64,000 bases of DNA, from assembly GCF_037392515.1 (NCBI RefSeq), contig NC_090280.1, forward strand, positions 29,269,118 through 29,333,117, given 5' to 3'. Made by a program: the position numbers and the translations under genes. Shown here in pieces: positions 383 to 62,543 of the stretch; the first letter of the stretch is position 1; each line of letters begins with the position of its first letter. The DNA comes from Haliotis asinina. Its lineage: Eukaryota; Mollusca; Gastropoda; Lepetellida; Haliotidae. The notes below the pieces were generated by a model. It saw nothing but the letters and a program-made list of their open reading frames with translations, was not told the DNA's origin and did not search any database.

Positions 383-3300
383 TCAAAATTCAGTGATGAA
401 ATCAATTTCTTTTAAAAAGCCAAGAATTAAATGAGAACTTACGATGTTAAAAAGGTCCTTAATTGTTTTTACATTGAAATATTTGTCCCTTATGATGGAG
501 AATTCAACACAGTCAAGCAGGATATGCTTGACCGTGGCTCTCTCATCACAAGGGATGCAAAACGGAGGATCCTCACCTTTCAGTAGGTATGAATGAGTAT
601 ATCTAGTGTGGCCAATGCGACATCGTCGTAAAATAACCTCTTCAAATCTGGACTGACAACCCAAGTAAGTATAACCAATGTAAGGTTTTATCTCATGTAA
701 TTTATTTATTCCCAATTGGGTGTCCCACTTCTTCTGCATCAGATCATGGATATAAGATCTAATGTTAGCTTTATAATCAGTGTATGGAATAAGAAGTGGT
801 GTCACAGATTTGTTGAGTGCCGCCTTGGCAGCAAGATCGGCCATTGCGTTACCAGAAATGCCCACGTGGCTGGGTAACCAACAGAAGACGATGTCGTATT
901 GGCCAGTAGCAAGAGTATTATACAATTCAATAATTTCAATTAAAAGTGGATGTTTACAAGATGTTTACAAGTGGATGTTTAATCGCCTGAAGGCAAGAAA
1001 GAGAATCGGAATAGATTATATATTGTTTACGTTTATGGTGTCTTTGAATATATTTAAGAGCTGTTAATATGGCGTTAGCTTCAGCTGTAAAAATAGAACT
1101 ATTATCGGGTAATCTAGAAGATATTGTTCTGGATCCAATAACAGTGGCACAAGCCACTGCGCCACCGTCCTTGGATCCATCTGTAAATAAGGGTTTGTAA
1201 TTGCTATATTTATGTTTTAATTGGTGATATTCTTGTTTATATTGTAAGTCATTAGTTTCTGATATTTTAAATGTAGTTAATGTTAATGTAAAGAAGACGG
1301 AAAGGTGATATACCTTCCAGCTCAATACCGGCAGAAGAAATAAATGGTTTAATTCGGTGCCCAAGAGGTGGAACAAGAGAAGATTTTTTGTTATACAAAT
1401 CCTCATAAAGGGGATTGAACACACAGTTAAAGGCAGGGTTAGATTCATTAGAATATAATTTAGTAATATATTGTAAAGACAGTTTTATACGACGTTGAGT
1501 AAGAGATGGTTCATCGGCCTCAACGTAGAGACTATCAATAGGTGACGTTCTGAAAGACCCAAGACAACGTCTTAAGCCTTGATGGTGGACGGAGTCAAGA
1601 AGTTTAAGATTGGTTTTGCAGGCTCCACCATATACGATGGAGCCATAATCAAGTTTCGAACGCACGAGTGATCGATATAGATGTAAGAGGGTTGCTTGAT
1701 CCCCTCCCCACTTTGAGTTGGAAACAACTTTCAACAAGTCAAGAGCCTTCAGGCATTTAGTTTTAAGGGACTTAATATGAGGCAGAAATGTTAAGTGGGA
1801 GTCAAAGATTAGGCCCAAGAACTTGGCCTCCTTTACAACTTTGATGGGAGTGCCATCTAGAGATAGTTCAGGGTCTTTTTGTGGCTTATATTTTCTGCAA
1901 AAATGTATACAATTAGTTTTCGATTTAGAAAATTTAAAGCCGTTTTCAAGACACCATTTATTTATTTTGTTTAAACACAACTGCAGCTGCCGTTCAATAG
2001 TATGCATGTTTTTCCCACGACAAGAAATATTAAAATCATCCACAAATAACGATCCATCTATTGAATCGTTTAAAACTTTTGATAAACTATTTATCTTTAT
2101 GCTAAAAAGTGTGACAGACAGCATTCTGCCTTGTGGAACACCCTGATCCTGAGTGTAATGATCAGACAGGGTAGAACCCACTCGAACTTGAAACTGTCTA
2201 TCATTTAAAAAGTTGGCTATAAATTGAGGTAAACGACCTCGCAAGTCAAAGTCATGTAAATCTCTTAAAATACCATATTTCCAGGTTGTGTCATATGCTT
2301 TTTCGAGATAAAAAAAGATAGACACGGCATATTGTTTATTAATTGGTGCATTTTTAACAAATGATTCTAAACGCACTAGGTGACCAACAGTACTTCTGTT
2401 TTTGCGGAAACCACACTGTATATCTGTTATGAGATTATTTGTTTCCAAGTACCAAACAAGTCGATTATTTATCATGCGTTCCATGGTCTTGCAAACACAG
2501 CTAGTTAATGAAATCGGACGATAATTAGATGGATCCGTATGATCACGTCCAGGTTTAGGTATTGGTACTACTATGGCGTCACGCCATGAAGGAGGAAAGT
2601 TACCCGATGTCCAAATACCATCAAAAATATTTAGGAGAGTTTCCTGACAGGATTCTGGTAAATGTTTCAGGAGTTGATAATGTATGTTATCAGCTCCTGT
2701 AGCAGTATCATGAGCTTGATCAAATGTAGTATGGAGTTCATGAATAGAAAACGTTTCATTATAATCTTCCCCATTATCGGAATTGAAATTAATAGTTTTC
2801 TTTTCTTCTTGTTTTTGATATTGCTGGAATTTTGGTACATAATTTGAAGAGAAAGAATGTTTAGCAAGGGTTTCACCCAGTTTATTAGCAATATCTGATT
2901 TATCAGTAAGCAATTGATATCCATGTTTAAGATGATGGACAGTAGATTTAGTACCTTTACCTTTAATTTTCTGGACCATGTTCCACACCTTGGACATGGG
3001 TGTCCGAGAGTTTATTTTAGATTGTTCTGTTTGTTCTGTTTAAAAGTACGCCGTGCTTTAGCATTTACAATTTTAAATTTATTTAAATTATGCACCATAG
3101 GATGGCGACGGAAATAATGTTTTGCTTTTTTCCTTGCCTTCCTAGCTTGTTTGCACTCATCATTGAACCATGGTTTTCGAATATGGGGAACTGCAGAGGA
3201 ATTTGGTATACACTCATCAGCTATAGAGTTCAATTCATTCAAGAACGTCAATAAAACGTTCAGGTTTAAGTTTTGCAGCACACAGTGTTTCATATAAAGC

Positions 3301-3969
3301 CCAGTTAGCCTTTTTAAAATTCCGCCTTGATGATGGAGGAACATCAGTTGGAGTTACAGATTTTAGTACAGTAGGAAAATGGTCACTTCCACAGAGGTCA
3401 TCGTGGACTGACCATTCAAATTCATTTATTAGTTCTGAATTTGTGAGTGACAAGTCAAGAGCAGTATAAGTCCCTGTACCGGGGTGTAAATATGTGTTGG
3501 AACCATCATTATAAATACATAAATCATTGTCAGAACAAAAGTCCTCCAACAATTTACCTTTAGTGTTTGTAGTTACACTACCCCAGAGTGGGTTGTGCCC
3601 ATTTAAGTCTCCCATTATAATACAGGGCTTCGGGCGCTGATCATATAGAGCTTGAAGATCAGTTTTGGCAAACGTCGTCGACGGAGAAATATAAAGAGAG
3701 CATAGCGTAAACGCTACATGTAAAGTAATTCTCACTGCAACAGCCTGAATATTAGTATTAAGTGAAACAGGGCTTTGAATAACGTTTTGTTTGACTAGAA
3801 TGGATGATCCGCCAGTGGCCCGATCACCCGGAGGTGCAAAACAGTGATATGCATTAAAATCACGAAGGTTAAATGTATCTGTTTGTTTTAAATATATCTC
3901 TTGGAGACATATCGCTGAAGGCATAAAATCTTGGACTAATAGTTGTAATTCATGTAAATTAGTCCTCAA
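383..3969 (-). pseudogene. LINE-1 copy A ORF2: AP endonuclease, reverse transcriptase, RNase H (frameshifted)
   Basis: Read from 3969 down, an exonuclease-endonuclease-phosphatase domain comes first (MGDLNGHNPLWGS, then SDHFPT near its end). A linker (3012-3344) and the reverse transcriptase (2997-1267) follow; the RT carries NYRPISLTSCVCKTMER, QGVPQGRMLS and the catalytic FVDD. RNase H is split between 1448-954 (FTDGSKDGGAVACA, IIYSDSLSCL) and 925-383 (WLPSHVGISGNAMADLAAKAA), and a C-terminal CIPCDERATVKHILLDC zinc-type motif ends the protein. Intact homologues would be about 1190 residues. The frame breaks at least three times; one break near 950-985 is a small local duplication of a gatgtttacaag block. 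ORF2 has no obvious AUG before the endonuclease and overlaps ORF1 in the -1 frame. Confidence 0.9.
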
Positions 3970-4007: not shown

Positions 4008-5345
4008 CTATCTTTTGGGGGGATTTATTGGGGATCTACCCCGCACTCTTTTGGAGGGCGACAAGCTATGTGCCCTAGAATGGACGTTTTCAGAAACGTC
4101 CATGTCTTCAAGAGACCCGTATTTATTGAACAATTGAATTTTGTTCTGTGACCCTTTAGGAGCTCTGCCACTTTGTTGTTTTGAAGCATCGGGCTTTGGC
4201 TTCGATTTATTTTTCACAGTTTGTTGACTATCAGCTGTGGATTGAGACTTTGAGTGTGACTGAGATGATGATTTGTGATCAGAAGACGACTTTGAGGTAC
4301 TAGGAAGTGATTCCTCAGTCTGAGATGACGTAGTAGGGGATAAAAGCTGTGGAGAATCGCAGTTGTCAAGTTGCCAAGTCAAGGTAGTTTGGCAGCCTGT
4401 AGATGATTTTGTTATTTTAGATCTGGACTCAGATGGTGGTTTTGCGACTGTAGCGTAACTTTCTGTAAGGTCAGATCTCTTCACCAGTTTTTTTGCTTCA
4501 GAAAAAGAGATGTTTTGGGTATATTTTATTCTGTTTATTTCCATTTGCTCTTTCCATATTGGGCACTGTTTTGACGAAGATGAATGGTCGCCTGAGCAGT
4601 TGGTGCATTTTCTAAAGTCACTGTCACAATCTTCTGTTGTGTGTGTCTTCTCACCACAGTGAGCACACACAACAGACAATGTGCAGGTAGATACACCGTG
4701 TCCATATTTCTGGCATTTAAAACACCTGAGCGGGTTTGGGATGTATGTATCGACCTGAATATTACAGTAGCCTGCCTTCACTGATTTGGGTGCATTTGGA
4801 GAGGAAAACGTAAACAGATACGTATTGGTTTTGATGGTTTCGTTGTTTCTTCGGGTTGAAAAGCGCTTGACGTGGAGTACACCTTGATCCTTCATTTCTG
4901 ATCCTATATCAAGTTCCGACATATCGTCAAACAATCGGTCTCGATCCCTAACGATACCTTTGCTTGTGTTCAGGGTTTTGTGAGCAGACACTGTGACGGG
5001 AATGCCCACGAAAGATTTGATGTTCATCAGGCTGGTGGATTGTTGTTTTTTACTACATTCAACTAATAGTGCACCCGAACGTAATCGTCTAATATTTTTC
5101 ACATCTCCAGCAATACCCTGAATACCTTTGGAGACAGCAAAGGGGTTAAGCTTTAAAGGTGTTTTGTCAGGAGTCTCAATCACAACGAAACGCGGCCAAT
5201 ACTCAATCAATGCAGACGGTCTATGGTCAGTATCATAAGGGTCAGTTTCAAGTAAACGTTTTGTTTTCTTGGGTGGAATTTCATAAGCCATGGTTAGTTT
5301 AATTTGGTTCATCATCCGAGCTCCCCACCCACCACGGAGTATCAC
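4008..5345 (-). CDS. LINE-1 copy A ORF1 nucleic-acid-binding protein with three CCHC knuckles
   Basis: Open reading frame of 445 codons; the better start is probably the ATG at 5291 (MAYEIPPKK), giving about 427 residues. The centre has three zinc knuckles: CFKCQKYGHGVSTC, CAHCGEKTHTTEDC and CTNCSGDHSSSSKQC. Before them is a region resembling an RRM-like ORF1 fold (FVGIPVTVSAHKTLNTSKG). The C-terminal third is Ser/Gln/Lys-rich and low complexity. ORF1 proteins of this type bind element RNA in the retrotransposition particle. The frame is intact although ORF2 is broken. Copies C and D keep damaged versions of the same protein. ORF1 ends in AAAAGATAG, about 40 nt inside the -1-frame start of ORF2. 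Confidence 0.88.
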   Translation of the reverse strand: MILRGGWGARMMNQIKLTMAYEIPPKKTKRLLETDPYDTDHRPSALIEYWPRFVVIETPDKTPLKLNPFAVSKGIQGIAGDVKNIRRLRSGALLVECSKKQQSTSLMNIKSFVGIPVTVSAHKTLNTSKGIVRDRDRLFDDMSELDIGSEMKDQGVLHVKRFSTRRNNETIKTNTYLFTFSSPNAPKSVKAGYCNIQVDTYIPNPLRCFKCQKYGHGVSTCTLSVVCAHCGEKTHTTEDCDSDFRKCTNCSGDHSSSSKQCPIWKEQMEINRIKYTQNISFSEAKKLVKRSDLTESYATVAKPPSESRSKITKSSTGCQTTLTWQLDNCDSPQLLSPTTSSQTEESLPSTSKSSSDHKSSSQSHSKSQSTADSQQTVKNKSKPKPDASKQQSGRAPKGSQNKIQLFNKYGSLEDMDVSENVHSRAHSLSPSKRVRGRSPINPPKR

Positions 5346-5854
5346 AAGGACAATGCTAAAGCAAGCTGGCCTCCAGCCTGCAGCACCAAGGATACCCGGA
5401 TGATATACTCTAGTAGAAGAATTATAAGAAATTAATCTACCAGATTGGCCCTTGAGCCATCGCCTTCTGGCACAAGACTCTAGGCAAAGTTCATATGATC
5501 ATAATGCACAATACTTAAATTTACAGATTAACAATAGTGCCAAGACCAAACTTCAAAATAATTCCAAATGAGATTTCTGCAATGACACACATGTAGTCTA
5601 TGCACAGGGCTTGGCATGACCAGCCGATTGGTTGAATCGGGCCCATTCAACCACCCGTCTAGGTGAAGTAAGGGCCGAAGTGGTGTGTTGGGCAAATGGA
5701 ACACAGTTAAAAGCCCAACTGCCCTCAACCACCAGGATCCCGTCCTCCACCGACACGGGACGCAACCCACGGCAAACAGGTTGCCCAATTTAGTCGCCTC
5801 TTACGACAAGCAATGGGGTGCTGTGGACACATTCTGTCCCGGGTCCACACGGGA
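5346..5854 (-). promoter_or_regulatory. 5' leader of LINE-1 copy A, with a module shared with the SINE
   Basis: Noncoding on both strands; the short frames here are not genes. The first ~90 nt after the ribozyme (minus strand, 5854 to about 5765) contain CCCGTG, ACCCGGGACAGAAT and CTTGTCGTAAGAGGCGACTA. A related arrangement heads the SINE copies at 7884-8175 and 36,928-37,210. LINE leaders of this kind usually hold internal promoters. Copy D shows the same leader at 34,042-34,257. No Pol III box could be assigned with confidence. Confidence 0.6.
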
Positions 5855-5912
5855 GAAGAGCACTTAGCGTTACCCAGCACCCACCACGAGGAGGTGGCTC
5901 TTCATGGGTGCC
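5855..5912 (-). ncRNA. HDV-like self-cleaving ribozyme at the LINE-1 5' end (copy A)
   Basis: Reading down from 5912, GGCACCC (5912-5906) pairs with GGGTGCT (5882-5876) as a 7-bp P1 whose first pair is the diagnostic G.U wobble at the cleavage site. A two-base AT joint follows. GAAGAGC (5903-5897) pairs with GCTCTTC (5861-5855) as P2. ACC/GGT (5895-5893 with 5885-5883) forms P3, closing a TCCTCGT loop very close to the HDV L3 loop. GG (5875-5874) can pair with CC in that loop as P1.1. J4/2 reads CTAA (5867-5864), fitting the CNRA catalytic-cytosine consensus. P4 is essentially absent. Cleavage would be between 5913 and 5912, exactly the element's 5' end. HDV-like ribozymes at LINE 5' ends are known from R2, RTE and Baggins; self-cleavage here is predicted, not shown. 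Confidence 0.75.
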
Positions 5913-21169: not shown

Positions 21170-24100
21170 CTTCAAGCACTTTACGACCAACTTCCAAAGC
21201 CCTGCATCATTATGGGTGATCTGAATGGTCATAACCCACTATGGGGTAGTGTGCATACAAGCAATATAGGAGAGGTTACTTGAAGAGTTCATTTCAAATA
21301 ATGATTTATGCATCTATAACGATGGCTCTCACACTTATCTACATCCTGGGAATGGTACTTATTCTAGTCTTGATTTATATGTCACTGACTCAATCCTCCT
21401 GAATGAATTTGAATGGTCCGTCCATGACGACCTTTGTGGAAGTGATCACTTTCCTACATTTCTAACACCTGTAACCCCTTCTGACGTTCCTCCGTCATCC
21501 AGATGGAATTTTAAGAAGGCTAACAGGCCTTTATATGAAACTCTCTGTGCTGACAAACTTAAACCTGAACTTTTCACTGATGTTGCTGACGCTATAAAGT
21601 GTTTTACTGATGAGGTGAACAACATAGCCAATGGGTGTATCCCTAAGTCCTCCGCAACTCCACATATTAGAAAACCGTGGTTCAACGATGATTGCAAACA
21701 AGCTCGGAAGGCACGGAAAAAAGCTGAATATTATTTCCGCCGCCATCCTACGGTCCACAATTTGAACAAATATAAAATTCTTAATGCTAAAGCTCGGCGT
21801 ACCTTTAAGCAAAGAAAACGCCATTCTTGGCGAACGTATGTATCAAAGATCAGTGCACGTACGCCGATATCAAAAGTATGGAACATGATTCAGAAAATCA
21901 AGGGTAAGGGCACTAAATCCAGCATTCAACACCTTCAGGATGGTGATCAGCTACTGACTAACAAATCCGATATTGCAAATAAACTGGGTGAAACCCTCGC
22001 CAAACACTCTTCTACAAATTATGTGCCTGAATTTCAGAAATATAAAAATCAGCAAGAAAAGAAAGCTATAAATTTCAGTTCAAATAATGATGAAGATTAT
22101 AATGAAATATTTTCTATTCATGAGCTTCATACTGCTCTTGAACAAGCTCATGATACTGCTTAAGGACCTGATCATATACATTATCAACTCCTGAAACACT
22201 TACCAGAATCTTGTTTAGAAATCCTTTTAAATATATTTGATGACATCTGGACTTCGGGAAAATTTCAGTCTTCATGGCGAGATGCTATAGTAGTCCCAAT
22301 CCCTAAACCTGGACGTGATCATACTGATCCTTCAAATTATCGACCAATTTCTCTCAAAAGCTGTGTTTGCAAAACCATGGAACGAATGATAAACAATAGA
22401 CTAGTTTGGTACTTAGAGACCGATAACCTCATAACAGATATTCAGAGTGGTTTTCGTAAAAACAGAAGTACCATTGATCACTTAGTGCGTTTAGAATCAT
22501 TTGTCAAAAACGCTATAATTAATAAACAACATGCAGTCTCTATATTTTTTGATTTAGAAAAAGCCTATGACACTACATGGAAATATGGCATTTTGAAAGA
22601 TTTGCATGACTTTGGACTGCGAGGCCGTTTGCCTCAATATATTTCCAACTTTTTAAATGACAGACAATTTCAAGTCCGAGTGGGTTCTACCTTGTCTGAT
22701 CATTATAGTCAGGATCAGAGTGTCCCACAAGGCAGTATTTTATCTGTCACTTTATTTAGCATTAAAATCAACTGTTTATCTAAGGTTTTAAATGATTCAA
22801 TTGATGGATCACTTTTGAGGATGATTTAATATTTCTTGTCGCGGTAAAAATATGCATACTATTGAAAGACAACTGCAATTGTGTTTAAACAAAATTAACA
22901 AGTGGTGTCTTGAAAACGGTTTTAAATTTTCTAAATCGAAAACTAATTGTATACATTTTTGTAGAAGATATAAACTGCATAAGGACCCTGAACTATTTCT
23001 CAGTGGCACTCCCATCAAAGTGGTAAAGGAAGCTAAGTTCTTAGGTATAATTTTTGACTCCCATTTAACCTTTTTACCACATATTAAGTCCCTTGAAACT
23101 AAATGCCTGAAGGCCCTTGACTTGTTGAAAGTCATTTCTAATTGTAAGTGGGGAGGGGATCAAGCTACCTTCCTGCAACTTTATCGATCATTGATCAAAA
23201 CTTGATTACGGCTGCATCGTCTATGGTGGAGCCTGCAAAAGCAACCTGAAACTTTTAGATTCTGTCCATCACAATCAAGGTCTAAGACTTAGTCTTGGTT
23301 CATTTCGAACTTCACCCGTCGACACAATGTACGTTGAGGCTGATGAACCATCTCTTAAACAACGCCGTATAAAATTAGCTTTACAGTATATAACCAAATT
23401 ATATTCCAACGAGTCAAACCCTGCATTTAACTGTGTCTTTAAACCTCTGTATGAGGATTTGTATAACAAGAAGTTTTCCCTTGTTCCGCCTCTTGGACTA
23501 AGAGTGAAACCTTTCCTTTCTGCTGCTGGTATAGCGCTAGACAACATAGCTCCCTCCCGTCTGATTTACTCTCCTCCTTGGCAGTTGGTTAAGCCACAAG
23601 TAGACCTTACACTGACTACATTTAAAAAATCAGAAACTAATGAAATACAATATAAACAAGAATATAATCAACTAAAAATAAATATTGCAATTACAAATCC
23701 TTATTCACAGACGGATCCAAGGACGGTGGCGCAGTGGCTTGTGCTACTGTCATTGGATCTAAAACAATATCTTTTAGATTACCCGATAGCAGTTTAATTT
23801 TCACGGCTGAAGCAAACGTCATATTGACGGCTCTTAAATATATTCAAAGACACCCGAAACATCAACAATTTATAATCTATTCAGACTCTCTTTCTTGCCT
23901 TGAGGCGATTAAAAACGTATCATGTAAACATCCACTTTTAATAGAAATTATTGAATTATGTAATGATCTTGTTACTGGCCAGTGTGACATCGTCTTTTGT
24001 TGGTTACCCAGCCACGTTGGTATTACTGGGAACACAATAGCCGATCGTGCTGCGAAGGTAGCACTGAACAAATCTGTGACACCACTTCTTATCCCCTACT

Positions 24101-24498
24101 CTGATTATAAAGCTGTTATCAGATCTTATATCCGGGATATCATGCAGAAGAGATGGGACACTCAAGTAGGTATCAATACATTACATGCGGTAAAACCCTA
24201 TGTTGGTTACACCTACTTGGGTTGTCAGTCCAGATTTGAGGAGGTCATCATCCGACGATGCCGTATTGGCCACAACAAGTATAGACATCAATACCTATTG
24301 AAAGGTGAAGATCCTCCGTTTTGTATCCCTTGTGATGAACGAGTCACAGTCAAGCATCTCTTGCTTGACTGTGTTGAGTACTCCATCACAAGGGATAAAT
24401 ATTTTACATCACGAACTTTGCAGGATCTTTTTATTAATCATAGTTCTCATTTAATTATTGCTTTTTTAAAAGACTTAGATTTGTTGTCTGAGATCTAA
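21170..24498 (+). pseudogene. LINE-1 copy B ORF2 (endonuclease end, RT, RNase H)
   Basis: Consecutive frames: 21,615-22,163 (linker, FNDDCKQARKARKKAEYYFRR), 22,377-22,829 (RT with MERMINNRLVWYLETDN and DLEKAYDTTWKYG), 22,852-23,205, 23,327-23,797 and 23,734-24,498 (RNase H IIYSDSLSCLEAIKN, WLPSHVGITGNTIADRAAK, then CIPCDERVTVKHLLLDC). Breaks: TAA near 22,160; a deletion around the catalytic FVDD near 22,815-22,830; a frameshift near 23,200; one near 23,750. RNase H itself is intact. The copy cannot code for active ORF2 protein. Confidence 0.9.
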
Positions 24499-33983: not shown

Positions 33984-34041
33984 GGCACCCATGAAGAGCC
34001 ACCTCCTCGTGGTGGGTGGTGGGTGACGCTAAGTGTTTTTC
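33984..34041 (+). ncRNA. HDV-like self-cleaving ribozyme at the LINE-1 5' end (copy D)
   Basis: Same 58-nt fold as copy A. P1 GGCACCC (33,984-33,990) with GGGTGGT (34,014-34,020): the G.U closing pair is kept but there is one G-G mismatch beside it. AT joint. P2 GAAGAGC (33,993-33,999) with GTTTTTC (34,035-34,041), all seven pairs kept through G.U wobbles. P3 ACC/GGT (34,001-34,003 with 34,011-34,013) around TCCTCGT. P1.1 GG at 34,021-34,022. Catalytic CTAA at 34,029-34,032. The P1 mismatch probably weakens cleavage. The element again begins at exactly the predicted cleavage site, after unrelated flanking DNA (tgtgttt). Confidence 0.7.
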
Positions 34042-39211: not shown

Positions 39212-39356
39212 AGTAGTATAAACAATGGGGGTTTTAAAACACTTTCAAGAAAAGTCTCTACAAAGCCTTATTTACTAAATAAGGCTTTGGTTGGGCCCTT
39301 AGCTCTTGCTACTATTACCCCTACTACTTAACGTGTGTTGGAGGTAACACTGTGCC
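39212..39356 (+). repeat. Polinton left terminal inverted repeat
   Basis: 145 bp, matching the reverse complement of 53,095-53,239 except at 39,222 (a/t) and at one C/T in the acccctact block. It contains a 29-bp palindrome at 39,261-39,289 (arms CAAAGCCTTATTTA). The integrase stop lies inside it. Confidence 0.95.
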
Positions 39357-40292
39357 GTACGGTACGATCAATAATTCTTCTCTTACAAACCCCCTACCCG
39401 GCCCATCCCTCAAGTAGTATAAGTTAGGTTCGTCGGCTTTCATATCCACTTTATCTATGTTGTAAGTTTTGACTGACCATATAGGATCGGTGGCCCGCTT
39501 ACGGCTATCACCCTCGTGTTCCCCCGGCTGGTATAGATACCTCACTAGGGCCCTATCTGGTATCTGTTTCTCCTTCCTACGCAATGGAGCGGCCGACTCT
39601 GCAACTATTGATTTTAGTTTGATAGCGTCTGCCGGTTTCTTACCGGTGAGACGGGTGACTTCATGGTTGATTGCCGACACCACCTTGGGTAACCTCGTGA
39701 CCCATTCAGTCGATCGTTTTCCAGGGGTGACCATCTCCCTAGCATACTGATGGCCGAACAAGCGCTCAGCCAAAGTCCTATTAAATCTCTCAACTATGGC
39801 TTGGCTGCGATGGGCTCCGGCCGTGCCACGCCTGACCTTTGTATCGTGTTTGGCTAGCAGTTGTGACACGGCACCCATGAACTCCCGTCCGGGGTCAACT
39901 TGCAGCTCTGTGGGCCACGTCAGCGGACTGCGTTTGTATATGCGTTCGAATCCTCTGGCTACCTGGGCCGAATCTTTCGTGGTCAAGGGTTCGGCTTCCT
40001 TGTAACGACTGGCTACGTCCACTACGGTTAAGGCATACTTGTACCTCTTGTCGTGGGGTAGGAACAGTAGGTCTGCCTGGTGAACGCTATTAGGTATGTT
40101 AATACCGAACCTCCTTCTAGGCACGTAGCGTGGTGCCGGCAAATAGATCTGCCACAGGGCTTGTTTTTCAAGCCACGCTTTGGCTTCCTCCGGGGGTACT
40201 CGCGCTATTTTAGCTAGCTTATCTACTGCGCTAGCTCCTTTCCAGTACCCACGCGGGCTGTAGTAAATAGCCTCAAATTTTTTCATGTCCAT
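39324..40292 (-). CDS. Polinton integrase (retroviral-type DDE)
   Basis: 322 residues, last gene toward the left TIR. The catalytic core has Asp74 (HQADLLFL), Asp133 (QVDPGREF) and Glu168 (SQAIVERFNRTLAERLF), with 34 residues between the last two, as in rve integrases. A helical N-terminal region (residues 20-50) precedes the core; the C-terminal part (230-320, LVRYLYQPGEHEGD, PIWSVKTYNIDKV) resembles the SH3-like tail of Polinton integrases. Integrase joins TIR ends to host DNA with 5-6 bp duplications, as seen at this site. The start at 40,292 overlaps the polymerase stop by 20 bp. Intact. Confidence 0.95.
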   Translation of the reverse strand: MDMKKFEAIYYSPRGYWKGASAVDKLAKIARVPPEEAKAWLEKQALWQIYLPAPRYVPRRRFGINIPNSVHQADLLFLPHDKRYKYALTVVDVASRYKEAEPLTTKDSAQVARGFERIYKRSPLTWPTELQVDPGREFMGAVSQLLAKHDTKVRRGTAGAHRSQAIVERFNRTLAERLFGHQYAREMVTPGKRSTEWVTRLPKVVSAINHEVTRLTGKKPADAIKLKSIVAESAAPLRRKEKQIPDRALVRYLYQPGEHEGDSRKRATDPIWSVKTYNIDKVDMKADEPNLYYLRDGPGRGFVREELLIVPYGTVLPPTHVK

Positions 40293-43200
40293 ACGCGTAT
40301 GTGTTTATCCCATCAATAGCTATCCAACGTTTCGTGTCCATAGGCGACAGGGACGTCTTGTTTATAGTCAGTCCGTATATCTTATGTCCATCACTTCTAA
40401 GTGTGTTCATTTTATGCCTAAAGGTACGGGTCTTGAACAGGGCTTCCTTGAATCTGGCGTGTTTGATGTGTTGTTTCACCACATACTTCTTAACCCCCTT
40501 AGCCTTCCGGATCTCACTATTGTCGGCTTTCAGTATGGAGTACATCTTAGGTCTCAAACCTATGTACTCGGCTATGGGCGTGCCAGCACACTCGTCCTTC
40601 ATCTTACCTAGGACCTTTTTATTTACCGTACTGTGTATGGCATGGGTCTTCGGGTAGTCGCTGGTGTCGTATAAATCGAGGTGTTTTTTCATGTCCTCGT
40701 ACACGTCCTCGGTTCGAATCTCCATCAGCAGGGAATCCGTGTCAGTGTACAGCACTTCACACCTGTCACCGTACTGTTTCTTGAGCTCGCTGTAGTAAAA
40801 GTCGTACATCAGGTGTTTGGATAAATCGAGGATGCTCATCCCCACGTAAACAGGCCGGTTGAATTTTATGTGGCTTTTCTTCATGTGTAGGGCAACCAGG
40901 TTGTCTGTGAATATCTTACTACGGTTGAATGCCGGACTTGCTATCAATCTCCTGAGCTTGTCTTCCTCACTCGACCGAACCAGCTTCACGGTCACGCGTT
41001 TCCTCAGGTTCTCCATAGTCTTACCAAACACCGAGTTGTTCTTGAGCTTGTAGAGATTTTTCTCAAAATCACTGGTGGCTTTTTTTCGTAGGTCTGTGTT
41101 CATTCTGATGTAGGGCTCCATCCATGGGCTCTGGTCGAACATGAGCACCCTGTGTATTTTGGTCAGCCTCATACCCAACGACAGGTACAGCTGTAGGTTG
41201 CGATAGTGAACAATGTACTTGGTCTTATTCATTAAGTTAGGCACGAGTTTTTCAACGTCTGTCACACGCCCACCTAACAAGTTATGTTGGTACTCAGACA
41301 TCCAGTCTGGGTTAACCCTCATACGTTCGGGGGCCAGGGGGTAGCTGTTGTGCGATGTGTGTAATTCCTTGGTATACTCTAAGTCAACCTCGAGGATATA
41401 CCCTTTGTTCGAATCTGGTGCAACCCCCATAACATCAACGTGGGGTACCCATTCGAATCCCCCTGTAGGTAGATACTGACTCATGGCCCAGCCGTACAGG
41501 TTGTTTGCGTCAAGGTAGAGAATGTGATTGGTTGGCTTGTTAGGATCGTAACCTTTCACGTATTGATTATTTGCTTTCGCGTATCGTTTGGATGCCATGG
41601 AAATCCCACCTCGCAAGCCTTTCTCAATGAATAGGTGCATGTCGTAATCTGTGAGCAATTCCAAATTAACTCCGGTCTTTTTAAGCAAGGCGTCCCACGA
41701 CAGACCTGGGCTGGTGTAATACCATGCGGGGTCGAGTTTATACTGCTTGAAACACGTCCGCCTAAACGTCTCAAACACGTCGGCTAACAGCAGTACAGCT
41801 GTCCTCAAGTACAGGTCGTGATAATCACCCAGGTTCTTACAACCCAGTTTATTCCATACGTTAGTCGCGTGCGAGTAATCATCTCGTGAGACGGACGCCT
41901 CATTCAGCTTGCTATAAAAGCAGTCAATTGGGGGTAGTCTGGTCTCGGTGAACTTGACCCAACTATCCATGTACTCATAGGGATACACACCCTTCCTCAT
42001 AAGCAGGGGTCTAGTCTCGGCGTCTGTGTATCGATCGGTGATAGGGAAGGTATTGTTGGCCTTGACCAGACTGTCGAGTGACGACAGGAGGAACTGAAAC
42101 GAGTCAATGAACCTAAGTCCGTTTAAGCTGAAGGAGATGTATCTCTCCATGTTGTTGGGGATGCACGTTATATTACCATCGATTTTCGCGATGGCCTGCA
42201 TGATCAAGTGTGAGTCGTACCCTCGCAAGTTGTGAAAGACAACGGGGATGTTTATTGTCTTAGGGTTGATTTTAAGCTTGAGGTTGCACGCGCTGTGAGC
42301 GGCGCCTCTATACTTACCAGTTATGTGGCAGTGATCTCTCACCGAATCACCGTTAAGTAGTGAGTCACACACGTGACAGTTAGTGCTACTAGCGTGAGCT
42401 AGCCTGTCGACTCGGGTCATACGCATGGGAGCGATTCTATACAATGCATTCCTAATAATTTTTTCTTCCTCCTGCAAACACTTTAGAAACCTTTCAGCCA
42501 CGTCAGGGCCCCTATACACTACCGGAGCTTTCGTTTCCCCGTCACAACGGACGACAATGTATCCAAACCCACAGGCTTTATGCTCTTGTTTAGGGGAATC
42601 CCCCACCACCAAGGCTTCGAAGTCGGCGTATATGATATAAGGCACAGACATTTGGTTCTTGTGGTTACCGAATTTTAGGATATTATCACCTTCCTTAGGC
42701 ATGTCGACTCGTATGGCCGTCTGCCCCACACCTTGGCAATCCTCCCGGTGGGATTCTAATAAATCAGCTCGTGTGAAGCCATGTAGGCATCGTTCACAGA
42801 AGTGGGTCTTTTCTCTGTGTGCCGATTGGTCATACAACAGCCTGCTAAAGTGTTTTATCCATGTGTAGTGATACTTGTCACCTCGCTGGATCATGAATAT
42901 ATTGATAACTTGGCGATCCTTCACCGGGCTGACCCTGTGTACTATTGTTGTGTTACCTTCGTGCCCAAAGACATTTATAGCCAGATTATTCTGTTTTTCT
43001 ACTTTAGTGATCTGGGATATGGGGGTGGGTTCATCTATACCATCCCAGTTGAGCCCATCATCCTGAGGATAATTAGAAGACCTGTTCGGATTAGTGCCAG
43101 CTGGAAATAAGGCTGACCTGATAGCTAACCTCAGGCAATCGTTTCCTCTATTCTTAACGTTTACTATGGCATGTTTGTTCCTATAGTAGGGGGGCAAGGC

Positions 43201-43953
43201 TAGGTATGACCCGCCTCTGAATGGCACGTAGTTAGCTATGTCTAGATAGACATTATCGATTTTATCTACAGCCCACCCGGACCCCAAGTGTGTGTAGCGT
43301 TCTAGGTATTCTCGTATCTGCTGAAAACTGGTATCGATTGATGCGTCAATGGTCTCTGTATGTGTGACGACCTCTTGTTTACCTCGGAAGTAAGGCTGAA
43401 CATATTCAGTGGTACTCCCAACCTGCTTATCGAGCGACATTTTCACTGTGATCTGAAACTTGATACTTCCTAGATTATTTAGTTCCTGGTTGACCTTATC
43501 AGCTATCAGAGGCTTGATATCTGTAATGTCTATGTTTCTATCAACGTGCATGCACCAACCTCTCAAATAGTTGCCTACAGCGCGCTCAGTGCGCACGAAC
43601 TGTAGGTCAATAGCTCTATTCTGTCGTAATAATTCTACAAGCTGTGGTTTCCTCATACGGGAATATCCGCCTAAACCCAAATCGTGTGCCTCGGCTTTCA
43701 GTTGTTTTACAGTGGGAACGGGGGCATGTGATAACAATGTGGTTAACCCGGCTCTCCCCAGGTTTGAATAACCCGTGTATCCAAGCTGTTTTGCTTGAGC
43801 TTTTAATTGTTTTACCGTAGGAGGGGCTTCTAAACCTAGTAATCTCAACAATGCTGACTTCCGCATTCGAGAATACCCGATCACACCTCTCTGTTTTGCG
43901 ACCCGCTTAAGCTCGCGTACAGTAGTCATAGTGTTTACACCTAACATAACCAA
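40273..43953 (-). CDS. Polinton protein-primed family B DNA polymerase
   Basis: 1226 codons from 43,953; MTTVRELK at 43,929 may be the true start. Residues 10-110 are three SAP/Rho-N-like repeats (TVRELKRVAK, TVKQLKAQAK, TVKQLKAEAH). Residues 265-410 hold a conserved module with NRGNDCLRLAIRSAL, then KYHYTWI, then a C2H2-like FCERCLHGF...H..DC. The exonuclease follows: ExoI YADFEAL (442-448), an HNH/EndoVII-like insert CHVC...DHCHITGKYRG...CN (526-557), ExoII FHNLRGYDSHL (573-583), ExoIII around 711-727. Polymerase motifs: A YLDANNLYGWAM (813-824), B LKNNSVFGKTMEN (970-982), C YTDTDS (1069-1074), KMY (1136-1138). It should replicate linear element DNA from a terminal protein. Intact. Confidence 0.95.
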   Translation of the reverse strand: MVMLGVNTMTTVRELKRVAKQRGVIGYSRMRKSALLRLLGLEAPPTVKQLKAQAKQLGYTGYSNLGRAGLTTLLSHAPVPTVKQLKAEAHDLGLGGYSRMRKPQLVELLRQNRAIDLQFVRTERAVGNYLRGWCMHVDRNIDITDIKPLIADKVNQELNNLGSIKFQITVKMSLDKQVGSTTEYVQPYFRGKQEVVTHTETIDASIDTSFQQIREYLERYTHLGSGWAVDKIDNVYLDIANYVPFRGGSYLALPPYYRNKHAIVNVKNRGNDCLRLAIRSALFPAGTNPNRSSNYPQDDGLNWDGIDEPTPISQITKVEKQNNLAINVFGHEGNTTIVHRVSPVKDRQVINIFMIQRGDKYHYTWIKHFSRLLYDQSAHREKTHFCERCLHGFTRADLLESHREDCQGVGQTAIRVDMPKEGDNILKFGNHKNQMSVPYIIYADFEALVVGDSPKQEHKACGFGYIVVRCDGETKAPVVYRGPDVAERFLKCLQEEEKIIRNALYRIAPMRMTRVDRLAHASSTNCHVCDSLLNGDSVRDHCHITGKYRGAAHSACNLKLKINPKTINIPVVFHNLRGYDSHLIMQAIAKIDGNITCIPNNMERYISFSLNGLRFIDSFQFLLSSLDSLVKANNTFPITDRYTDAETRPLLMRKGVYPYEYMDSWVKFTETRLPPIDCFYSKLNEASVSRDDYSHATNVWNKLGCKNLGDYHDLYLRTAVLLLADVFETFRRTCFKQYKLDPAWYYTSPGLSWDALLKKTGVNLELLTDYDMHLFIEKGLRGGISMASKRYAKANNQYVKGYDPNKPTNHILYLDANNLYGWAMSQYLPTGGFEWVPHVDVMGVAPDSNKGYILEVDLEYTKELHTSHNSYPLAPERMRVNPDWMSEYQHNLLGGRVTDVEKLVPNLMNKTKYIVHYRNLQLYLSLGMRLTKIHRVLMFDQSPWMEPYIRMNTDLRKKATSDFEKNLYKLKNNSVFGKTMENLRKRVTVKLVRSSEEDKLRRLIASPAFNRSKIFTDNLVALHMKKSHIKFNRPVYVGMSILDLSKHLMYDFYYSELKKQYGDRCEVLYTDTDSLLMEIRTEDVYEDMKKHLDLYDTSDYPKTHAIHSTVNKKVLGKMKDECAGTPIAEYIGLRPKMYSILKADNSEIRKAKGVKKYVVKQHIKHARFKEALFKTRTFRHKMNTLRSDGHKIYGLTINKTSLSPMDTKRWIAIDGINTYAYGHEKI

Positions 43954-53239: not shown

Positions 53240-53823
53240 ACATTTAATTCTTGGATTTTTAAAAGAAATTGATTTCATTGTTGAATTTTGATTATTATGG
53301 TAATTCATGGTAGTTTAGATCAGTAACTTGAATTGTTAGTGGCTGTACCCTCAAAGGGGGTTGAAGTACCGTAAAATTATTGTCCTCCTGAGAGGGTACG
53401 TAAGTCCCAAAACATTTCCTGTACGTTTAGACTTCCACTGTTTTTAATCGTAGCATATGTCTATTTTTAAATTTTGGCTAGATGGGACTAAATTGCTAAC
53501 GGCTGAGGGGACGATGTAAATCCAACTGGGGTCCATGAAGGTAGCAAAGGTACTGTAAGTCCCCATGGTCCCTAGTATGGTAATCTACCTTCAGGTGTTG
53601 GCAATCTATAGCCTGATTTTATGTTGTATTGTCCGAATAGTGATATTAGTTTTAACTTTCTACGCTAGTTTTAATTCAAATTGTGATATCCTAGTTGTTT
53701 TACTGTCCTTCGCCGACAGATTTTATAACATACATATAGTCCTTTTCTTTGCTAAATGTTCTCGTCACAATATGGCTCAGATATTGCCGATGTGACGTTA
53801 AATATTAACTCACTCACTCACTC
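53240..53823 (+). mobile_element. Remaining 3' end of LINE-1 copy D
   Basis: Resumes the ORF2 tail (tttaattcttggatttttaaaagaaattgatttcattg) cut at 39,206, then the full 3' UTR, the terminal stem-loop (CGTCAC... ATATTGCCGAT GTGACG, 53,763-53,798) and actcactcactc at 53,810-53,823. Confidence 0.88.
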
Positions 53824-55730: not shown

Positions 55731-56836
55731 CTATATTTTACCGACAATGAGGCCAACAGATGATACATGACCACCGTCGCCTTGAAAGGTCATGTTGACG
55801 TTGTTTGTTGCACGGACTTGTGATTCGGGGACCATGAACACCCACACGTTCCATTTTGTTTTTCCGTCGGTCTTCATAGAATCAAAGAGCATGTAGCTTG
55901 ATGACAGCGTGTGGCCATTGAACACAACTGCCTTCGGTTTTGCGTCAGCATTCAAATTTCTGCTAACTCCCACCCTAAGATGCGCTGAACTGTAACCAGA
56001 GCTTGGAAGACGGATGGTTGTCTGAGCATGACCATGGCTGATAGGGATGACCATGTCTTTGCCATAGTATGTGCGTTGGTTGCACGTGGGCATTCTGCCA
56101 AAGTTGTAGTTGGTTTTGAATGTGTAGAAGCATGTTGATGATCCAGGCAGACCCACGGAGCCATGATCCTTAGATATGTTGAAATGGTAGTTGAGATGAA
56201 TTGCTGGATTACTGTTTTCGAAAAGAACGCATGTTCGTTCGCCTGTGGGAGGATTGATCCAGCTGTTAGAGAAGTCAAGTTGTACATTTTGCCAATTTCT
56301 ATCATAGTTGTGAAGAAGAACTACCACCTCTTTGGTGAGAGGGTTTGCCAGAGCCAGGGGTGCAATTACTCTTTCTTGTCCATTGTATTGACTTGAAACA
56401 CGGAGAAACTTGTGGTTATAAACGAAGTTTGTCCAAAACGTGAAATATTTCGTCATGGTAAGAGCATGACCGTCTTTGGTAAATAAGGAATTCCTTAGGG
56501 TGGGATGACCCGGATATTGAACATTTCCGTGAAGAAAAACTAGAACTATTTCGATAAACTCCCTCAAGTTCAGGAAAGTAAACATGAAACCGTTGGGTTG
56601 ATAAATGGTCTCAAAGTCAATGATTCCATTTTCGAAACCGTCGGGAAGTCCGAAAACATTTCCTCTACCAAATTCACTGACAACTAACGGAACATTTTTG
56701 CCTTTCTTGAGATGGGAGTAATTCTCCACCATGTCAATAGAGGCGACCAGACGAGCTTCGTTGATGCCAAAACGTGAATAGTTTCCACCTGACACCCGCA
56801 GATAACTGTAGGAATGGAAAGAGAAAAAGTCCAAAT
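55731..56836 (-). pseudogene. GH gene 2 last exon, 3' part: GH-A glycoside hydrolase, agarase/porphyranase-like
   Basis: Single open frame from the Gypsy insertion point to TAA at 55,731: LDFFSFHSYSYLRVSGGN, GINEARLVASIDMVENYS, the nucleophile motif VVSEFGRGNVFG, QPNGFMFTFLNLREF, ANPLTKEVVVLLHNYD, then the C-terminal sandwich domain beginning RTYYGKDMVIPISHG and ending GDGGHVSSVGLIVGKI. Closely similar to GH gene 1 but without its frameshifts. The exon continues on the far side of the Gypsy element at 63,779-64,000. Catalytic residues on both sides are intact, so the gene worked until the insertion, unless the uninserted allele still segregates. Confidence 0.8.
56832..56836. repeat. Left target duplication of the Gypsy element (CAAAT)
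   Basis: CAAAT here and at 63,774-63,778, flanking TGT...ACA LTR ends. In GH gene 1 the corresponding exon position is uninterrupted. Confidence 0.9.
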
Positions 56837-58045
56837 TGTCACATACCAAAGTAACCACAACAGAAGAATAGTTTGTTTTGCAAAACTTTATTCCTCCCCT
56901 TAAGATATAAGTAACCCCAATACCTATACTAAACTAATTCTACAGGTGCAAATACAACTAACTAATCTAATTACCTAACCTAGCTACATATACAGTTCTG
57001 TCTACCACTTAAATTGCTAAAGTTCTAATACTACTACTACTACTACTAACTACACTAAAATCCTAATACCCTCACTAATATAGATAATGATTACATATAA
57101 TCCCAATCAGAAACTAAACAATTGAACTAAATAACAATAAAGGAATTTGCCACTCAGAGAGAACACTTTCTCTTTACAATGTAATCAGAATGTCAGTGCA
57201 CTTTGGTTCCACTTGGTGACGTCATGGTATTTGTGTGGTATCCCTCACACCCAGGCGATGGTTTCCCTCACGGAGTTTAAGGGGCCTGTGTAATGGTTGA
57301 TGGCTGTGCCATCCACATCTCACATTACTAGGAGATACATGCTCCTTGTACAACAGGGAAGACTCTTGTCTGTCTCCTTACAGGCGGAGATAATACCCCT
57401 CTCCTTACTTTAAGGATAACCGGCCAGTTCCGGGACACTACAATACAATATAAGTAACTACAGTTACTCAGTAAGACATGTGTCAATGTCTTATACTTTA
57501 TGCATGTACTTTACTCCGATTTACATATTTGAAAGTGGAACAGGTTTTGTGGAACGATAACATTCAAATTTTGAATGGCTTTGTGGCTATATAGTGTTAC
57601 AATATGCACATATATCTAGAAATACTACATCAGTAAAACAATTTCTTGCTACATCTACTCAATCAATAAATACAAAAGTAATAATGATAATAAAAACTTA
57701 CGCCAGCCAGCGTGAGATGCAATCCCATACAAAAGTTGAACCCATACAGGTGAACACAGTGGTGATTCTGGCTGACTGTGCAGATTACTACCCTTCCTCA
57801 CTATTTATATTGACCTCCCATACCCAAGCTACTCAACACCTCTCTATTGTTTACAAATTAACACCCCAGCTCTCTGGCCATACCTGGTCACGCTTCCCTG
57901 AACATAACCCTGTTCCCATAGTATTACCGAACATAATCTAACAACAACTCCCAACAATATATAACACACTCTAACAATACCATACTACATCTATTTACAG
58001 TACCATAAACTAATTATATAAACGAAATCATCTGTGATCTTGACA
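56837..58045 (-). repeat. 3' LTR of the Gypsy element
   Basis: 1209 bp, TGTCACATACC... GATCTTGACA on the plus strand. The only difference noticed from the other LTR is A at 57,944 versus G at 63,672. Short frames within it are not genes. Confidence 0.95.
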
Positions 58046-58251: not shown

Positions 58252-61200
58252 CTAGGGTGAACACCGGCTCAAGAGATCAGTTAGCGGAGCTGCTATGGCT
58301 GCATAGTTTGGGATAAATTTCCGGTAGTACCCGGTCAGTCCCAACAACGCTCTCACTTGTTTCTTGGTTTGAGGTCGCTCCACATTTAGGATCTTTTCTA
58401 CATTCTTACCTTCTGGTCGAATTAGACCACTACCCACCTTGTGCCCTAAAAAGTCCAGATGTTTATATCCCACTTTTACCTTTGAAGGTCGAGCTGTAAG
58501 ATGGAATTGTCTTAACCTCGTAAATATTGCTCTCAGACTTACCATGTGGTGTGACCAGTTCTCAGTTCCTTCTATGATGTCGTCTATGAAGTTGTCTGTA
58601 TTTGGTATGTTGTGCAATACTTGTCTCATCAGTCGGGAAAATACTGCAGGTGCATTAACTACTCCAAATGGCATCACCTTCCATTGGTATAATCCATCAG
58701 GAGTTATAAATGCTGTCAGTTCTTTGCTACTCTCTTCCATTGGAATCTGCCAATATGCTTTGCTTACATCAATTTTGGTAAGATATTTACAGTTCCGTAA
58801 CCGTGCAAAGATGGAATCAGCTAATGGAATTGGTTCGGCATCAAATACGGTCACCTGATTCAGTTTGCGAAAATCGGTACAAAATCTGTAAGTCGAGTCA
58901 GGCTTCTTCACAAGTACAATGGGGGATGCATATGGTGACTGAGAAGGTTCTATCACCCCCATGTCTAACATTAGCTGTATCTCCTTAGCTACAACATCTC
59001 TCATATGATGAGGAAGTGGATAGGGCTTGGATCGTATAGGCTCATTACATGTCAGCTTGATCTTATATTCCATACAATTTACCTTCCCTGGTAAATCACT
59101 CAGTACATCTTTGAATTCACTTATGAGCTCCTTCACCTCATTTTGTTGCTCCTCTGTCAAATCTTCAGAAATGTCTACATCCTGATACGTTTCCTTAGAA
59201 ACTAAAGAAGGTGAAGCTATGTCTAACATACTCACCTCTTCAGCCTTGACATCCACCAGACCAGCACTGACATGCACAAGTTGAGCTATGCTGACGTCAC
59301 ATACAGCTGTGTCCTTGACCTCCTCTCTCTCAATGTACCTTTTCAGTAGATTGGCATGATAGGTTTTAATCTTGTTACCAACCTGTATTCTGTAATTGCC
59401 AATGCCAAAGGTATCCAGTATTTCATATGGCCCTTTCCACTGCAGCAACAGTTTGTTTGAATCAGTGGGCAACAGAATTAATACTTTATCACCAACCTTC
59501 ATTTTTCTTGGCTTGGATTTCACATCAAAGAACTTTTTGTATTTACATGCTTTCTTTTGAAGTTCTTGCTGTGCTACGTGAATAGTCTCCTCAAGACGGT
59601 TTTGAAGATCTAGCACATACTCATATGTGGTTCTTACCTCTGGATTTGGTATATCTCTTGTCCAGATTTCCCTCAGAATCTGTACTGGTCCTCTCACAGT
59701 GCGTCCATATAAGAGTTCAAATGGGGCAAAACCCAAACTCTCTTGAGGTACCTCTCGGTAAGCAAATAACAAAGCAGGTACATACCTGTCCCAGTCATTT
59801 GGTCGTTCTGCACACATCCGTTTCAGCATCGTCTTCAAGGTTCCATTGAACTTCTCCACTAGGCCATTGCACATTGGATGATAAGGGGAAGTAGTAAGCT
59901 GATGTATGGACAATAGTCTACTTACCTCCTTCATCACGCCTGACGTGAACTGGGCTCCCATGTCTGTTAATATCTCCTTGGGGATACCAACCCTACTGAA
60001 TATCTCGAACAGAGCTTCGGCAACATATTCCGTCTCTACTCTGGGTAAAGCTACTGCTTCTGGGTATCGTGTTGCATAATCAACCACCGTCAGTATATAC
60101 CTATTACCCTTGTCTGTGACAGGATACAATGGACCAATCAAATCAACAGCTACCCTCTCAAATGGCACTTCAATTAATGGCATTTGTCCCAGTGGTATTT
60201 TCCTTACCTTTCCCTTCGGCATGGTACGTTGACAAATATCACAAGACTGAACATGTCTTCTGACATCACCAATTACTCCTGGCCAATAAAACTGTGAGAT
60301 TACCCTATCTAGAGTCTTCTTGATTCCAAGATGTCCACCCATCAGTGCTTCATGACATACCTTCATTACCTGTGTGCGCAATCCAACCGGTACTACTGCC
60401 TGTACAACTTGTTTACCATTGTCCATTTTATTGGAAGTATGCTTCCTATACAGCATATCATTCTCCACAAAGTAAGAGGAAGTACTATGTCGGGTCTCCC
60501 TAATCTTACCTTCTTCCACTAATTTTCTTATTTTGTTCAGACTTGAATCCTGATGTTGTAGGGATACGAACTCACCTCGACTCAGTGTCAACCCAACAGG
60601 TTCCAATGTCTTCAAGGGTTCCATGCCTACTTGGCGTACTCTTCTCTGGCTCCTTGTCTCTACAGCACCTACTGTTTTAATGTCCTGCTTATCCCACATC
60701 AAGTCTGGATCTCCTGGCTCTCTAACTCCGGGAATATTGCCTAATATTAAGTCACAGATTGGTGTGTCCATACATGCTGCTCTCACCATACCCGTGTAAA
60801 AGGGCGTATTTACAGTAATCCATGCTACCGGAAGTGTCAAGATCCTGCTATCTGCTAATTTACAAGATTGTGTTTCTGAAGTCAAACATGCATCTTTTAC
60901 CATTGACCTCCTCACTATTACACCGTTACATCCCGTGTCTCTAAGCACATCTACTGGAGTGTCGTTTACCTTTCCCTGATAAAATGGCATGCGGTGATCT
61001 TTGGTAAGCACACTCCCTGAGGCTACATCTGCTTTAGTAACCTCCTCTGAAGTTGCTGCATCACCATCTAGAACTTCATGTATGCAGGGCTCTACTTTTG
61101 TGTTATCTGGATGTATTAGAGACATGTTTGTGTTGTCTTCACTCACCTGGATACTTGCCACTTTAAACTTGGGTTTCTTGCACTGTGCTGCCAAATGCCC

Positions 61201-62205: not shown

Positions 62206-62543
62206 AATTGTCTGTATGAGGGCAAAGCAGGGTACACAAAAAGTCAAACTGTTTGGAATAAATAGGGATCCTACCAAGAATAAAACCGGAGGTGATTTCC
62301 CATATATCCCAATGTTCAAAATGTTCACGACGAACCAATGGCCTTAACTGACCAATAACCACAATACACCCTCCACCCTTGAATTCCAAATCATACACTC
62401 AAGGACGCAGAAGTGGTGCCGTATGTTCTAACCCTTCTTTATGGACACAAAGATTCTGCAGCGATATACAATCAACAACGCTACATCAAATGCGCTACAG
62501 AACACAACTAGGGTTCCCTTTGATAGTGACAAATAATCTAATT

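Follow-up and report, generated by a model that had tools for sequence, protein, structure and literature searches.

The 58 nucleotides at the 5' end of a LINE in Haliotis asinina, a vetigastropod mollusc, very probably form an HDV-like self-cleaving ribozyme without a P4 stem, which would release the LINE RNA at its 5' end. The motif lies in a 64-kb stretch of the genome (64,000 nucleotides, hereafter the window). All parts of the nested double pseudoknot other than P4 were located in the interval 5855..5912, as proposed in the sequence-only reading of this DNA; the coordinates given there were correct, the strand was left unstated, and we found the motif on the minus strand, which is also the strand of the LINE open reading frames (Table 1). 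In particular, the G1.U37 pair of P1 sits at the predicted cut, and an AT joint separates the 5' strands of P1 and P2. The P4 stem is absent; five nucleotides (TAACG) stand in its place, with C44 and G45 adjacent and 0 bp formed. By alignment, we take the putative catalytic cytosine at 5867 (C46 of the motif) to be the equivalent of C75 in HDV.

Table 1. Positions in the window of the predicted ribozyme, of the LINE that carries it and of related copies.
Feature	Position	Strand	Basis or remark
Minimal HDV-like ribozyme motif, 58 nt	5855..5912	minus	G1 = 5912, P2 end = 5855
Predicted cleavage site	between 5913 and 5912	minus	coincides with the LINE 5' end
P1 5' strand GGCACCC	5906..5912	minus	7 bp with GGGTGCT at 5876-5882; sequence
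P1 3' strand GGGTGCT	5876..5882	minus	sequence and 52-copy count
P2 5' strand GAAGAGC	5897..5903	minus	7 bp with GCTCTTC at 5855-5861; two-sided changes at 4/7 pairs
P2 3' strand GCTCTTC	5855..5861	minus	sequence and 52-copy count
P3 (ACC/GGT, 3 bp), closing L3 TCCTCGT	5883..5895	minus	sequence, Rfam alignment
P1.1 CC/GG	CC 5890-5891, GG 5874-5875	minus	sequence, Rfam alignment
Putative catalytic cytosine, first J4/2 position (CTAAG)	5867	minus	Rfam alignment
5' UTR after the ribozyme	5346..5854	minus	parts from +71 on conserved in the Solemya-associated LINE
ORF1	4008..5345	minus	CCHC-type zinc knuckles by eye, without Pfam match
ORF2 part, APE-type endonuclease	3235..3969	minus	PF14529, PF03372
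ORF2 part, reverse transcriptase	1267..2997	minus	PF00078
ORF2 part, RNase H, two frames	383..1484	minus	PF00075, 24.9 and 18.7 bits (cut-off 25.8)
Sibling RNase H copy	23734-24498	plus	27.4 bits, over the 25.8 cut-off
Second ribozyme copy, decayed	33984..34041	plus	G2-G36 mismatch in P1, A42G
Rearranged LINE copy headed by the second ribozyme	33984 to ~39200	plus	ribozyme at its 5' end
5'-truncated copy with the family 3' end and an ACTC-repeat tail	53241..53823	plus	end approximate, by eye

The motif was compared across the genome at 95 loci, 30 of which were found by DNA similarity, 30 with RF02682, 5 with RF00094 and 30 with a core pattern that leaves free P2, the P1 5' strand and six of the seven bases of the P1 3' strand. 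Removal of 7 loci whose flank was common to another locus left 88 non-redundant copies, and the 51 distinct 58-mers from the 95 loci together with the second copy in the window gave a set of 52 distinct copies for the analysis of covariation. Across the 52 copies, 93.9% of the cells in P1, P2, P3 and P1.1 of the nested double pseudoknot were paired. P1 formed all seven pairs in 75 of the 88 non-redundant copies, C46 was present in 85 of them, and L3 was invariant save for C23T (8/88) and T24A (1/88). Since all the searches from which the copies came are biased towards a conserved core, this conservation partly reflects how the copies were selected.

The best Rfam match of the motif was to RF02682 (HDV-F-prausnitzii), with 30.7 bits and an E-value of 0.00087 in 601 nt; over the whole window, the E-value was 0.093, and this was the sole match at E<=1. 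Its score lies below the gathering score of 44, just as the 22.5 bits that RF00094 gave for the 58 nt lie below 50, and the Rfam scan returned no match at gathering score anywhere in the window. Genome-wide, the best scores were 37 bits for RF02682 and 33.1 bits for RF00094, whose search gave five weak matches, every one of the P4-less type. The RF02682 model and the abalone motif have the J4/2 sequence GCUAAG in common, whereas in the L4 region 15 positions of the model stand opposite one base here. Our claim of a ribozyme is based on structure and not on Rfam membership. The sub-threshold scores would also suit a chance resemblance to HDV, as would the ordinary folding energy of the nested-only structure (z of -1.57, with 17 of 200 shuffles equally good, from a program that cannot score the pseudoknot). 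We rejected chance as having next to no probability. A permissive descriptor that detected two sites in the window (the motif at 5855..5912 on the minus strand and the decayed copy at 33984 on the plus strand) found 0 sites on both strands of 40 dinucleotide-shuffled windows, and chance is further contradicted by the boundary exactly at G1 in 88 copies and the P2 covariation in 52 copies, as described below.

The 5' end of the element was examined with a 276-nt DNA query that included 13 nt of upstream flank, such that query position 14 corresponds to G1. This query gave 40 scored matches of 2797 candidates, and the 39 besides the window started at query positions 4-14. All 30 DNA-similarity loci that were examined begin at G1 (including the window copy and five loci with one common flank), and none of these 30 extends upstream of GGCACCC; one match starting at query position 4 was outside the 30. 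Among the 88 non-redundant copies, the information content was 0.03 bits at -1 compared with 1.98 bits at +1, and it never rose above 0.40 bits at positions -20 to -1. The step from random to invariant sequence falls exactly at G1, which bears out the earlier proposal that the predicted scissile site is the 5' boundary of the element. We also observed a pyrimidine bias with few G at -13 and -12 (chi-square p of 8.6e-7 and 3.1e-5; 30 positions tested in 87 copies, with L074 left out of the 88 for its altered 5' strand). This bias is likely a target preference of the endonuclease and, as it lies at a fixed distance from G1, would imply target-site duplications of approximately 12-13 nt. Such duplications were sought where tails lay within the examined stretches, which are shorter than full-length elements, and one 6-nt candidate was found in a short copy. 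Additionally, two copies of different P2 classes, L071 and L082, have inserted 5 nt apart into the RNase H part of earlier copies of this LINE, and the window contains four non-identical, uninterrupted versions of this insertion site at up to 5 mismatches (1010 on the minus strand; 23880, 33437 and 38640 on the plus strand). The L082 junction is unambiguous, and at the L071 junction 3 nt (GGC) also match the target; both nested insertions agree with an element start at G1.

Most substitutions in P2 keep its pairing, an outcome on which the sequence-only reading had made its proposal depend. In the 52 distinct copies, 88.7% of the P2 cells were paired, and compensatory changes on both sides were present at four of the seven pairs. 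Cells with two-sided changes numbered 57 compared with 23.1 in shuffles; the covariation score was 0.169 compared with 0.088 for shuffled copies (0 of 500 as high) and was at most 0.052 when the partner strand was slid. Two of the five covariation measures were not above the shuffles, namely the pairs with double changes (4 compared with 4.6) and the further pair types (14 compared with 15.5). A smaller P2 count on 24 copies, comprising 23 of 31 distinct copies and the second window copy with 8 omitted (some of them badly paired), gave 92.9% paired cells and a score of 0.191, and the result holds on the 52. Copies found with RF02682 or with the pattern were not selected for P2 pairing, because the RF02682 structure lacks P2 and the pattern leaves it free. 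The main P2 classes among the 95 loci were GAAGAGC/GCTCTTC (39 loci), GGCGAGC/GCTCGCC (21), GAACGGC/GCCGTTC (4) and GAACAGC/GCTGTTC (2). Within the 88 copies, seven P2 pairs were formed in 64, six in 11, five in 11 and three or fewer in 2, with a mean of 6.52 pairs for the copy's own partner strand compared with 5.15 for a partner taken from a copy with another 5' strand. P1 and P3 hardly vary and therefore give no covariation support, neither for nor against.

The core pattern was found 1695 times on each strand of the H. asinina genome (equal counts, taken at face value), and a reversed-pattern control was found 0 times. The core with the cytosine changed was found at 43 and 41 places, or 84 of 3474, and any change at the seven neighbouring positions was seen by eye in 5 of 100 listed copies. 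Since the cytosine changes are not below the drift expectation, single copies appear to decay freely; constraint appears to be visible only in the common forms of the ribozyme, with no special protection of the cytosine in a single copy. The changes of P1, P2 or the cytosine in many copies could also point to a former ribozyme that now serves only as a structured 5' end (to bind the reverse transcriptase or to allow template jumping, for example) in lineages where cleavage has been lost. We find this highly improbable: the most frequent variants within the main P2 classes retain every core residue, and scattered defects are what would be expected of decay after insertion. ORF1 was present downstream of the ribozyme at 92 of the 95 loci with printed identities of 36-100%, which indicates that deeply diverged LINE subfamilies are served by one ribozyme.

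P1 was nearly invariant even where the search did not constrain it. Within the core pattern, both tested P1' positions were changed at 1 place only genome-wide, and GGCACCC was retained in 29 of 30 pattern-sampled copies, although the pattern does not specify the P1 5' strand. This invariance suggests an added constraint, and it would be expected if an internal promoter started transcription at G1, with the 58 nt acting mainly as promoter DNA or as a leader for ORF1 translation and with weak or absent cleavage. The trypanosomatid element L1Tc lends this alternative some weight, as its 77-nt hallmark is described in PMC4035085 as both a promoter and an HDV-like ribozyme. A promoter alone leaves unexplained the compensatory P2 changes, the HDV-type core of L3, P1.1 and J4/2, and the occurrence of an identical core next to different P1 and P2 sequences in viral contigs, and we consider it improbable. 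Because the L1Tc hallmark does both, the promoter and ribozyme roles are compatible. The self-cleaving ribozyme that we favour could accordingly be a two-in-one module like Pr77, in which P1 is also a DNA-level promoter, initiator or second-site-joining sequence; we hold this addition to be rather unlikely. Such a DNA-level role would account for P1 being frozen across deeply diverged subfamilies (ORF1 identity down to approximately 36%) while P2 drifts by compensation.

Elements of the I superfamily have an APE endonuclease, a reverse transcriptase and an RNase H in ORF2 and CCHC motifs in ORF1. We matched the APE-type endonuclease, reverse transcriptase and RNase H in the present LINE, in which the ORF2 of the window copy is split into several frames, and recognized the CCHC-type ORF1 by eye; the placement of the ribozyme LINE in the I superfamily (Nimb or Ingi) is therefore well founded. 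The earlier description of an RNase H-bearing I-type element in a molluscan host was thereby upheld, as the LINE sits in an abalone genome. Among 120 of 660 ORF1 relatives listed were sequences from H. asinina, H. rufescens, H. rubra and H. cracherodii, as well as from Batillaria, Saccostrea, Gigantopelta and Patella and two from a spider. The names of the reverse transcriptase and ORF1 relatives give no clade that would separate Nimb from Ingi; according to PMC10294476, molluscs as a group contain no I-superfamily clades besides these two and one unknown clade. If the LINE belongs to the Ingi clade, the ribozyme in common with the trypanosomatid ingi/L1Tc elements could be ancestral to the clade. 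We also noted a possible 5' UTR hairpin, GTCGTAAGAGGCGAC, downstream of the ribozyme at 5793-5807 in the window subfamily; the copies L032 and L077 carry GGTCGCAAGGAGCGACC in its place, suggestive of a second structure with compensated pairing.

A related LINE with an open ORF2 of 1238 aa was observed at 4947-10634 of L100, in the gill symbiont assembly of Solemya velum (NZ_JRAA01000003.1), and is probably host DNA within a bacterial record. Its reverse transcriptase is 56% identical to that of the abalone LINE, and parts of the 5' UTR from +71 on are common to both (81% over 121 columns). We found no such ribozyme in this single copy. A related 5' UTR without the ribozyme would suggest gain, loss or replacement of the ribozyme among related LINEs.

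Several known systems resemble the abalone ribozyme. An HDV-like ribozyme from Haliotis discus (Webb & Luptak 2011) is described in a passage of PMC3774820 as having 'only 5 nucleotides instead of a P4 stem'. It comes from the same genus, and in the abalone motif 5 nt (TAACG) likewise separate GGG from the catalytic C; the likeness lies in the description given there. The abalone LINE is possibly the element behind that reported ribozyme. PMC3774820 also mentions five silkmoth R2 ribozymes without P4. For Drosophila and zebra finch, PMC5035012 gives the 11-mer CCUCCUCGUGG as the stretch of the R2 ribozymes with the highest conservation, and the abalone core contains all 11 letters unchanged. 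As described in these sources, R2 ribozymes are also HDV-like, stand at a LINE 5' end and free the element RNA from a co-transcript; however, R2 is specific to rDNA, and in many R2s the cut lies further upstream than the element itself, in contrast to the abalone cut predicted at the boundary. The L1Tc element, according to the account in PMC4035085, encodes an endonuclease, a reverse transcriptase and an RNase H, and the Pr77 ribozyme of L1Tc/ingi resembles the abalone motif in being HDV-like and in forming the 5' end of such a LINE, with AP endonuclease, reverse transcriptase and RNase H. Pr77 differs in its length of 77 nt, its trypanosomatid host and its second role as a promoter, and the likeness is one of features. 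The novelty claimed from the sequence stands in one part only: a P4-less abalone HDV-like ribozyme and a ribozyme in the RNase H-bearing L1Tc were already known, whereas the placement on an I-superfamily mollusc LINE was not found among the papers listed. Among the matches listed in a full-text literature search, whose range does not take in the older ribozyme papers, no paper placed an HDV-like ribozyme on an I-superfamily mollusc LINE, and the word ribozyme is absent from PMC11203168.

To place the core among other organisms, we compared it with viral and bacterial contigs. In IMG/VR (2.9 million contigs), the core pattern occurred in two stretches, L096 80-136 and L097 4873-4930, and the core with the cytosine changed occurred in none; the pattern was also absent from the GTDB contigs. 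Both stretches are candidates for theta-like HDV ribozymes, with the exact abalone core and their own P1 and P2. A model of P1 and P3 only scored 54 bits for L097 and 42.4 bits for L096, and the L097 candidate is located among five clustered tRNA genes but does not directly abut the end of a tRNA. According to PMC10879173, the theta ribozymes found in gut phages lack P4, are Mg-dependent in vitro and are inactive with C changed to U; when bacterial and eukaryotic genomes (human, mouse, protist) were added to that search, only 12 hits were obtained, and these were bacterial. The abalone motif is P4-less like the theta ribozymes described there, and the L096 and L097 contigs hold its exact core. 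In contrast, theta ribozymes belong to phages and often lie at tRNA 3' ends, and the P1 and P2 of L096 and L097 are unlike those of abalone. The abalone motif belongs to a LINE, not to a phage with a tRNA neighbour; it may work in theta fashion but is not assigned to the theta ribozymes. Reverse transcriptase scans of the viral contigs revealed no relatives of the LINE, and the identical core in the viral contigs and the abalone LINE is presumably the result of convergence. Two further, near-identical IMG/VR contigs (L102 and L103) found through the 5' UTR pattern GTCGTAARAGGCGACTAAA have no ribozyme and were dismissed as a chance match. The abalone copies raise the question of what keeps P1 frozen as P2 drifts.

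The sequences themselves show the motif, its position at the element boundary, compensation in P2, conservation among the subfamilies, abundance and association with the LINE open reading frames; the mechanism that we infer beyond this comprises catalysis, co-transcription and the use of the cleaved RNA as a template. Transcripts initiated upstream would read into the element, and the double pseudoknot would fold once P2 has been made. The J4/2 cytosine and a metal ion would then cut 5' of G1 to give an RNA that starts at G1, and the freed RNA would be translated and subsequently serve as the template for target-primed reverse transcription. By analogy with R2 and L1Tc, the ribozyme most likely trims the element RNA from longer transcripts of the host. 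Because reverse transcription would run to G1 of the cleaved template, new full-length copies would again start at G1. This suggests a likely job for a P4-less HDV-like ribozyme of the abalone type, which is present in thousands of copies, falls into several P2 classes with compensated pairing and has the element boundary exactly at the cut. The copies also amount to an extensive natural collection of mutants of an HDV-like core that is among the smallest.

Other features were observed elsewhere in the window. Open reading frames on the minus strand at 39324-43953 matched an integrase core (rve), Rho_N and, just over the cut-off, Endonuclease VII. Intron-free open reading frames on both strands continue from there to approximately 53 kb, and the region from 39324 to approximately 53 kb is probably another large mobile element. 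At 58252-62328, a single frame resembles an LTR retrotransposon, with SCAN, zinc knuckle, integrase and reverse transcriptase domains; the reverse transcriptase follows the integrase, an order known from Gmr1-like elements. Additionally, an open reading frame on the minus strand at 55731-56858 matched the C-terminal domain of beta-porphyranase A (PF18040, 32.9 bits), a domain of an algal-polysaccharide enzyme.
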